Notes under the pieces: generated by a model
Database searches by the model: none
What the model saw: the letters and a program-made list of their open reading frames with translations, nothing else
Told to the model about the DNA's origin: nothing
Position numbers and translations under genes: made by a program
Assembly (NCBI GenBank): GCA_945860205.1
Contig: CAMARK010000001.1
Coordinates: 1-64,000 of the forward strand
Source of the DNA: Reyranella massiliensis 521
GTDB lineage: Bacteria; Pseudomonadota; Alphaproteobacteria; Reyranellales; Reyranellaceae
DNA length: 64,000 nt
Direction of reading: 5' to 3'
In this document: piece by piece, positions 6,657 through 8,317 of the stretch
Numbering within the stretch: position 1 is the first letter of the stretch
Layout: every line of letters begins with the position of its first letter

Positions 6657-7271
6657 ATGGGCCGCCTGAAGGAATTCGACGAAGCCAAAGCCATCGACGG
6701 CGCCGTCGATTGCTTCTGGGCGCGCGGCTACGAGGCAACCTCGGTGCGCGATCTTGCGGAACACATGGGCATCGGCGGCGCCAGCCTCTACAACGCCTAC
6801 GGCGGCAAGCGCGCCCTGTTCGTCAAGGCGCTGGAGCGTTACGCCGACCGCTCGTCGCGCGAGCGCATCGCCCGGCTGGAAGCCGGCGGACGGCCGAAGC
6901 GGGCGATCGAGGCCTTTCTCGCGGAGATCATCGAGAAGTCCCTGAACGATCGCGCGCGCAAGGGCTGCCTGCTGGTCAACTCGGCGCTCGACGTGGCGCC
7001 GCACGATGCCGAAATCGGCAAGGTGGTCGCCGGCTACCTCGACGAAATCCGTGCCTTCTTCCAGCGCAACATCGAGGCCGGCCGCCGTGCCGGCCAGATG
7101 CCGCGCAATCTCGATGCCGTCACCGTGTCCGCCCATCTGCTGGGTGTCCTGCTGGGGATCCGGGTGCTGGCACGCACCAGGCCCGACCGCACGCTCCTCG
7201 AAAGCATCGCGCGCCCGGCGCTCGACCTGCTGACCCACGGCAAGCCCGCCCCGTCCCGAACGAAGGAATAG
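6657..7271 (+). CDS. TetR/AcrR-family transcriptional regulator
   Basis: A 204-residue repressor-type protein with the N-terminal TetR helix-turn-helix (residues about 10-55). The recognition region reads VRDLAEHMGIGGASLYNAYGGK, where most family members have …SLYxHFxxK. RKGCLLVNSALD and a helical C-terminal ligand domain resemble the TetR_C group of YcdC/AcuR-like regulators. It stops 3 bases before the ATG of the peroxiredoxin-like gene, so the two are co-transcribed, and it is divergent from the EamA transporter. Its inducer may be an electrophile or oxidant that the peroxiredoxin-like protein handles; that is an inference from context. Confidence 0.88.
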   Translation: MGRLKEFDEAKAIDGAVDCFWARGYEATSVRDLAEHMGIGGASLYNAYGGKRALFVKALERYADRSSRERIARLEAGGRPKRAIEAFLAEIIEKSLNDRARKGCLLVNSALDVAPHDAEIGKVVAGYLDEIRAFFQRNIEAGRRAGQMPRNLDAVTVSAHLLGVLLGIRVLARTRPDRTLLESIARPALDLLTHGKPAPSRTKE

Positions 7272-7274
7272 ATC

Positions 7275-7928
7275 ATGTCATTGGCAGAAAAGCTGGAAGC
7301 GACACGCAAGGCGAGCGCCGGCAGAATCCCGCCGGAGCGCGCGGCCATCATGGAGCGGGCGACGGACGATCTGCGAAAGTCCGGCATCCTCGACCGCATC
7401 GTGGCCGTGGGCAAACCCGCGCCAGCCTTCGAACTCGCCAACCACGACGGCCGCAGGGTCGCGTCCGCCGATCTTCTGGCCGGCGGGCCGCTCGTGCTGT
7501 CCTTCTTCCGAGGGTCGTGGTGACCCTATTGCAGGCATGAGCTGGACGCTCTGCAGACCATCTACGCCGGCGTTGCGGGCCTTGGTGCCTCGCTGGTCGT
7601 GATCTCGCCCGAGTTGCCGGCACGCACGGCGGAGATGGCGGGCAAACAAAAGCTCACCTATCCCATCCTCTGGGACGAAAACTCGGCGGTTGCCGCTGCT
7701 TTCGGACTCGCCTTCTCGCTGCCCGACGACCTCACGGCCGTCTACAAGGGCTTCGGCGTCGATCTCCCGGCGGCCATCGGGGATCCTTCGTGGCGCCTGC
7801 CGGTTCCCTCGCGGTTCGTCATCGACCAGGACGGCATCGTGCGCTCCGTGGAAGCCGATCCGGACTACAAGTACCGGCCGGAACCCGAGACAACGCTCGA
7901 TGCGCTGCGGAAGGTCGTCGGCGGTTGA
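7275..7928 (+). CDS. Peroxiredoxin-like selenoprotein, in-frame TGA read as Sec (U83)
   Basis: The frame from ATG 7275 meets TGA at 7521-7523 and then continues without another stop to TGA 7926-7928. Read through, it is a 217-residue AhpC/TSA thioredoxin-fold protein with all family features in register: KPAPAFELANHDG (47-59), LVLSFFRGSW then the TGA codon then PYCRHEL, LVVISPELP, and RFVIDQDGIV. In Cys homologues this site is RGSWCPYC, so TGA replaces exactly the peroxidatic Cys, giving a UxxC redox motif. A SECIS-like hairpin follows the TGA. A thiol/selenol peroxidase or thiol-disulfide role is expected. Co-transcribed with the TetR gene. A plain nonsense mutation is the alternative but would be a remarkable coincidence. 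selABCD must be elsewhere; none are in this window. Confidence 0.82.
7530..7555 (+). promoter_or_regulatory. SECIS-like hairpin downstream of the Sec TGA
   Basis: The lower stem TGCA/TGCA (7530-7533 with 7552-7555) and the upper stem GAGC/GCTC (7539-7542 with 7548-7551) close a 5-base loop TGGAC, with a 5' bulge GGCAT. The apical loop starts 20 bases past the TGA and has G at its second and third positions, and a bulged T lies just below the upper stem. Bacterial SECIS elements, bound by SelB, have a short upper stem, a small loop with an early G, and roughly this spacing. The fold was made by eye and has not been computed. Confidence 0.65.
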
Positions 7929-8317
7929 CGAAGGCCACCGCCAGGAAGAAGGTCACGGCGCGGAGCGACTCGATCGCTCTCTGCCGTGGCCAACATGTCG
8001 GACTGTACGACAGCGCGGGACGGCCGCGGCGGATCGTCGACCATCCCACCAACGCCCAGCTCCTAGGCACGCGGCCCGAGGTCTGCGTGGTGCGCGCGCC
8101 CGACGTCGCCCTCGACCCGGGCGACGCCATGGTTGTCGTCTATGCCGGCCAGGGCGGCGCCGCCTCTCGCGTTGCGGCGGCCACGACCATTCGCGGCAAC
8201 GGCGACGTCATGGGCCTCATCGAATGGCGGGTCGAGCCGGGCTTTGACCATGTCGCCAACACCGAAGATGGGCGCACGGTTCACCGTCTCACGCGAACGC
8301 CCGACTCGCAGCGCTGA
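7925..8317 (+). CDS. Hypothetical protein coupled to the selenoprotein stop
   Basis: A frame of 130 codons from TTG at 7925, overlapping the selenoprotein stop in TTGA. The product is a soluble basic-then-mixed protein with a beta-rich central part (GLYDSAGRPRRIVDHPTNAQ, then AMVVVYAGQGG) and no signal or membrane segment. I do not recognise a family. The 4-base overlap, the absence of a competing frame and the 4-base gap to the convergent ABC-F gene argue that it is real. If translation is coupled, ribosomes reach it only after decoding the TGA as Sec, which would tie its synthesis to selenium supply. Confidence 0.55.
   Translation: MTKATARKKVTARSDSIALCRGQHVGLYDSAGRPRRIVDHPTNAQLLGTRPEVCVVRAPDVALDPGDAMVVVYAGQGGAASRVAAATTIRGNGDVMGLIEWRVEPGFDHVANTEDGRTVHRLTRTPDSQR

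Follow-up and report, generated by a model that had tools for sequence, protein, structure and literature searches.

Comparative sequence evidence for a selenocysteine-containing, peroxiredoxin-like protein with a predicted thioredoxin-type active site in Reyranella massiliensis

One described kind of bacterial selenoprotein comprises the Prx-like thiol:disulfide oxidoreductases, in which a PF00578 domain carries a UxxC or UxxU site (Zhang and Gladyshev; PMC13188914, PMC1088965, PMC2398784) and for which oxidoreductase activity is a prediction in that literature too. Within the Alphaproteobacteria, a 2006 survey listed FdhA, the formate dehydrogenase alpha subunit, as the sole selenoprotein (PMC1794560). 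Here we analyze a window consisting of the first 64,000 nucleotides of contig CAMARK010000001.1 from Reyranella massiliensis 521, and describe a gene whose read-through product scores above the PF00578 gathering threshold and bears a UxxC site, U83-P-Y-C86. The gene is a further example of this already known selenoprotein kind, and adds to FdhA as an alphaproteobacterial selenoprotein relative to the 2006 survey; a partial literature search turned up no report of this gene in the genus, and three papers that mention both Reyranella and selenoproteins do not, judging by their titles, appear to include a selenoproteome study. The features of the locus are collected in Table 1.

Table 1. Features of the Sec gene and its surroundings, in window coordinates
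Feature	Position	Strand	Basis or remark
TetR-family regulator	6657..7271	+	TetR_N E 2.5e-12; 3 nt gap upstream of Sec gene
Sec-containing peroxiredoxin-like gene (predicted)	7275..7928	+	217 aa read through, U83-P-Y-C86
In-frame UGA, predicted to be decoded as selenocysteine (residue 83)	7521..7523	+	TGA in 40/40 distinct UGA-clade members; outgroup homologues TGC/TGT
Cys86, predicted partner of Sec83 (UxxC)	7530..7532	+	Invariant, 15/15 aligned proteins
Putative bacterial SECIS hairpin GCA-(U)-GAGC-UGGAC-GCUC-UGC	7535..7554	+	Fold, synonymous conservation, UGA vs Cys comparison
Pro178, ResA-type Pro position, replaces peroxiredoxin catalytic Arg	7806..7808	+	Invariant in 15-protein alignment; alignment to solved proteins
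Small ORF, no family	7925..8317	+	TTG start overlaps Sec gene stop

The initial annotation of the locus had proposed that an in-frame TGA interrupts a single AhpC/TSA-like frame, such that the product would read U-P-Y-C, and both the frame and its domain matches agree with this description. The frame opens with an ATG at 7275 and closes with a TGA at 7926-7928, and its single internal TGA lies in the local context FFRGSW-U-PYCRHELDALQ. The read-through product matches Pfam AhpC-TSA (PF00578) over residues 45-191 with 95.8 bits (E 2.3e-27), as compared to a gathering cut-off of 26 bits, and also matches Redoxin (E 6.4e-21); because the AhpC-TSA match extends to both sides of the TGA, the domain spans the codon. 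No NCBIfam model reaches its own cut-off on the read-through protein, so annotation may truncate the gene, and pipelines may more generally split or miss UGA genes of this type. That the frame closes on a TGA, as it does in most orthologues, rules out a general reassignment of UGA in the organism, to which we assign practically no probability.

Comparison of the source gene with 24 Reyranella orthologues indicates that the frame is maintained throughout. Downstream of the TGA, dN ranges from 0.03 to 0.28 and dS from 0.23 to 1.26, with similar values upstream; dN/dS thus lies well below 1 on either side, indicative of purifying selection, and the proposal that the frame is conserved both before and after the TGA stands. 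These values bear on a competing account, namely that a nonsense mutation or a sequencing error has struck a Cys gene now decaying in the source strain. A lone TGA splitting an otherwise normal frame is what such an account would predict; against it, the frame is otherwise undamaged and the part downstream of the TGA remains under purifying selection.

The distribution of the codon bears on the same question. We surveyed 61 genomes (the source and its relatives), 37 of which belong to Reyranella, together with 385 genomes of the class Alphaproteobacteria. The gene has an orthologue in 20 of the 37 Reyranella genomes, the source included, and all 20 carry TGA at the codon, as do loci from named Reyranella genomes. 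Close relatives with TGC or TGT at this position, with TGA and other decay confined to the source strain, would have favored a nonsense mutation; no Cys orthologue was found in any surveyed member of the genus, the Cys proteins that do occur there being paralogues (33-38%). Other TGA-containing relatives, which the initial annotation had suggested seeking, are present beyond the genus: 13 genomes outside Reyranella among the 385 have TGA at the codon in proteins of 38-53% identity, the other homologues having TGC or TGT, bringing the tally of sampled genomes with the UGA gene to at least 33 (20 from Reyranella and 13 from other alphaproteobacterial families). Across 40 distinct homologous sequences the codon is TGA and never TAA or TAG, with TGC or TGT in the others, a pattern that excludes chance. 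The recurrence of the same TGA in 40 distinct sequences from several alphaproteobacterial families, in genomes independent of the source, rules out a nonsense mutation, and we regard this account, sequencing error included, as extremely improbable.

In a tree of 88 rows, the 40 UGA proteins form one clade (support 98/98, 99% of bootstraps), and 11 Cys homologues make up the neighboring clade; homologues further off also have Cys at the codon. On this tree the UGA form has a single origin. Its occurrence is associated with that of the decoding factor: SelB scores above cut-off in 13/13 of the non-Reyranella UGA genomes, all 13 of which also have SelA, versus 5/31 of the Cys genomes (Fisher p 2e-7, computed with 5/30; the 5/31 count would be slightly stronger). 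The presence of SelB in five Cys genomes is expected if it is kept there for other selenoproteins such as FdhA. In one UGA genome (G127; L152, G127:C73), the UGA gene shares a contig with selA-selB and adjoins them, 284 bp separating it from selB; in another (G333; L162), the Prx-like UGA gene occurs twice in tandem, some 0.3 kb apart.

The source genome itself (5.0 Mb, 210 contigs, 100% complete) contains the full set of Sec genes. The initial annotation had supposed that the organism possesses this machinery, and had taken absence of selB or tRNA-Sec as favoring a nonsense mutation; a search of the genome recovers selA (559 bits), selB (453 bits), selD (300 bits) and a tRNA-Sec with anticodon UCA (71.4 bits). 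In other Alphaproteobacteria, tRNA-Sec has been reported nested inside selB (PMC8124441); in the source genome it instead follows the selB stop at a distance of about 30 nt. The selD gene (G000:C50:24840-25751, L138) is fused behind a domain that, from reading its sequence, we take to be NADH-dehydrogenase-like, yielding a protein of ~754 aa in which Cys takes the place of Sec. The genome also has a second UGA gene, fdhA (G000:C67:5273-8323, L142), with an in-frame TGA in a Sec context and clustered with the other fdh genes and selA, which, together with the sel genes, indicates that UGA-Sec is in use independently of the Prx-like gene. One relative (G019) has two UGA redox genes, the Prx-like gene among them, and neither selA nor selB was detected in its assembly (89% complete, 240 contigs); the sel cluster may fall in an assembly gap or may have been lost.

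The mRNA segment that follows the UGA has the properties of a bacterial SECIS element. The published bSECIS model (PMC13188914) allows a loop of 3-9 nt with a G in its first two positions, an upper stem of 4-16 bp, a spacing of 16-37 nt and a minimum free energy of -7.5 kcal/mol or lower. The hairpin at 7535-7554 falls within these limits: it has an upper stem of 4 bp above a further 3 bp, a 5-nt apical loop (7543-7547) whose second and third positions are both G, a spacing of 19 nt between UGA and loop, and an energy of -8.8 kcal/mol. Among the UGA genes the loop reads UGGA- or UGUA-, which fits the G[G/U] rule. Folding energy was rejected as evidence for a SECIS, since the hairpin is no more stable than shuffled sequence (z 0.03); relative to synonymous recoding, mean z is -1.2 for UGA sequences and -0.4 for Cys sequences, a weak signal for any one sequence.

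Support for the element comes from comparison across homologues. Over the 12 codons that follow the UGA (84-95), synonymous conservation is 0.79, as compared to 0.61 at other conserved codons (p 6e-4). The upper four pairs of the hairpin can form in 21 of 24 distinct UGA sequences versus 1 of 49 Cys homologues over the corresponding segment, and Ala92, whose third-position T makes one of the stem pairs, is encoded by GCT in 39/40 UGA genes, versus 5% at their other Ala codons and 4/50 at the equivalent position of Cys homologues; relatedness inflates these counts, though several families are represented among the sequences. Variation in the upper stem is slight, and no pair among the 24 sequences shows a two-sided compensatory change, such that support for the SECIS comes from synonymous constraint rather than covariation. 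The SECIS-like hairpin noted at the outset is therefore borne out by this constraint and by its presence in UGA, not Cys, homologues, its energy being ordinary. The case shows how a Cys site can become Sec even as a SECIS is accommodated in the mRNA over some 10 codons of coding sequence.

These observations also address whether the UGA could act as a regulated stop, giving a short product of 82 residues, with read-through by a near-cognate tRNA without selenium. The modest energy of the hairpin would be compatible with such an arrangement, as would the genome noted above in which the gene occurs with no selA or selB found in an 89% complete assembly. An 82-residue piece would, however, break off immediately ahead of the active site. 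Homologues have either UGA or a Cys codon at this position, with UGA following SelB in its occurrence, and the geometry of the hairpin fits the published SECIS model (PMC13188914); we accordingly judge a regulated stop to be very improbable. Selenocysteine decoding is, by contrast, strongly supported by comparative sequence evidence, and the gene is almost certainly an intact selenoprotein gene rather than a broken one, its UGA being read as selenocysteine in the predicted active site.

An AlphaFold2 model of the product (pLDDT 94.7) is closest among solved structures to Bcp4 and AhpE (Z 22 over 150-158 residues), and its sequence matches peroxiredoxins and ResA-type thioredoxins alike. In the model, Sec83 directly precedes a long helix (84-102). 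When the protein is aligned to those of known structure, U83 coincides with the Thr of the peroxiredoxin PxxxTxxC motif and C86 with the peroxidatic Cys, the motif Pro is replaced by R79, and P178 aligns with an Arg of 2ywn and 3hjp, which we take to be the catalytic Arg of peroxiredoxins, but with the Pro of ResA. Across the family, positions 79, 83 and 178 are invariant or, at 83, Sec/Cys. The initial annotation had held that Sec replaces the catalytic Cys; this view is sustained insofar as Sec is the first residue of UxxC and is Cys in homologues, and needs correction insofar as U83 sits at the peroxiredoxin Thr, the peroxidatic position being that of C86.

The arrangement of these residues bears on what the enzyme does. 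With C86 aligned to the peroxidatic Cys and peroxiredoxins (Bcp4, AhpE) as the top structural matches, the UGA-Sec product might be a true peroxiredoxin that acts mainly as a peroxidase, Cys86 being peroxidatic and Sec83 resolving. The protein does not, however, have the PxxxTxxC motif and catalytic Arg of a peroxiredoxin proper, carrying R79 for Pro, U83 for Thr and P178 for Arg, and we consider a mainly peroxidatic role rather unlikely. Instead, the placement of U83 at the Thr, R79 at the Pro and P178 at the ResA Pro indicates that the active site is, as read from the alignments, of thioredoxin type (UxxC plus Pro) and carried by a peroxiredoxin scaffold. Because the protein has no Cys besides C86, a U83-C86 Se-S bond would be its sole intramolecular redox pair. 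We predict that the protein is probably a disulfide oxidoreductase (selenol/thiol-disulfide) by mechanism.

Taken together, the locus can very confidently be read as a Sec gene decoded by SelB, whose product combines a thioredoxin-type site with a peroxiredoxin fold and whose chemistry and substrate we infer. In this scheme, SelB with Sec-tRNA(Sec) would recognize the mRNA hairpin and decode the UGA at 7521 as selenocysteine, yielding a protein of peroxiredoxin fold in which Sec83 would lie at the N-terminal end of helix 84-102 and Cys86 three positions further along, with Pro178 corresponding to the thioredoxin cis-proline. The selenocysteine would most likely attack a disulfide, a peroxide being a less likely target; Cys86 would then resolve the intermediate as a Se-S bond, which a cellular thiol reductant would reduce.

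At most Reyranella loci of the Sec gene a TetR gene lies upstream on the same strand, and the regulator is a probable operon partner. The small downstream ORF is kept at part of the Reyranella loci (37-54% identity). Several Reyranella loci (L052, L033, L026) have an extra gene of ~140 aa between TetR and the Sec gene, of the DUF1330 family in L052, that is absent from the source locus; a PADLOC search for anti-phage defence gave no match. We tentatively suggest, as a possibility, that the UGA genes constitute a distinct, hitherto uncatalogued alphaproteobacterial selenoprotein subfamily, arisen once from a CPYC 'peroxiredoxin-like family protein' in lineages already using Sec for formate dehydrogenase, and coupled to TetR in Reyranella; if so, selenol enzyme and regulator together would amount to a small module for redox response. 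Relatives (L132, L133, L134 and L141 of G011, G023, G019 and G029) have a second PF00578 family, of shorter proteins (~160 aa), with the context FYRGHW-UGA-PYC and a hairpin (loop AGUUG) immediately after the UGA. It is probably another UxxC selenoprotein of the genus; it was not found in the source genome, and a TAG also interrupts the frame of the G029 copy.

Several known systems offer points of comparison. The Sec peroxiredoxin PrxU (TxxU; NF040737) shares the peroxiredoxin fold and matches weakly (24.1 bits against a cut-off of 270), but the Sec of the Reyranella protein sits at the Thr position, not the peroxidatic one; the match to the SelL-related redox protein (NF040769) is likewise weak (residues 47-148, 39 bits against a cut-off of 120). 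ResA and related thioredoxin-like thiol-disulfide oxidoreductases have a CxxC at a helix N-terminus and a Pro in the cis-Pro position, resembling UxxC and Pro178, whereas the Reyranella protein has additional helices at its N-terminus (3-41) and is longer at the C-terminal end. 'Peroxiredoxin-like family protein' is the NCBI name of most of the nearest Cys homologues among those borne on plasmids (44-50% identity; putatively of cd02970 type), and a selenoprotein listed under that name in PMC13188914 is UxxS, whereas the Reyranella gene is UxxC. The closest likeness is to the Prx-like UxxC/UxxU selenoproteins, with which the gene shares the PF00578 domain, the UxxC site, common Cys homologues and a UGA with a SECIS directly downstream; compared by description, the examples reported in the papers cited for this kind come mostly from Deltaproteobacteria, marine metagenomes or clostridia, whereas the Reyranella gene belongs to an alphaproteobacterial clade.
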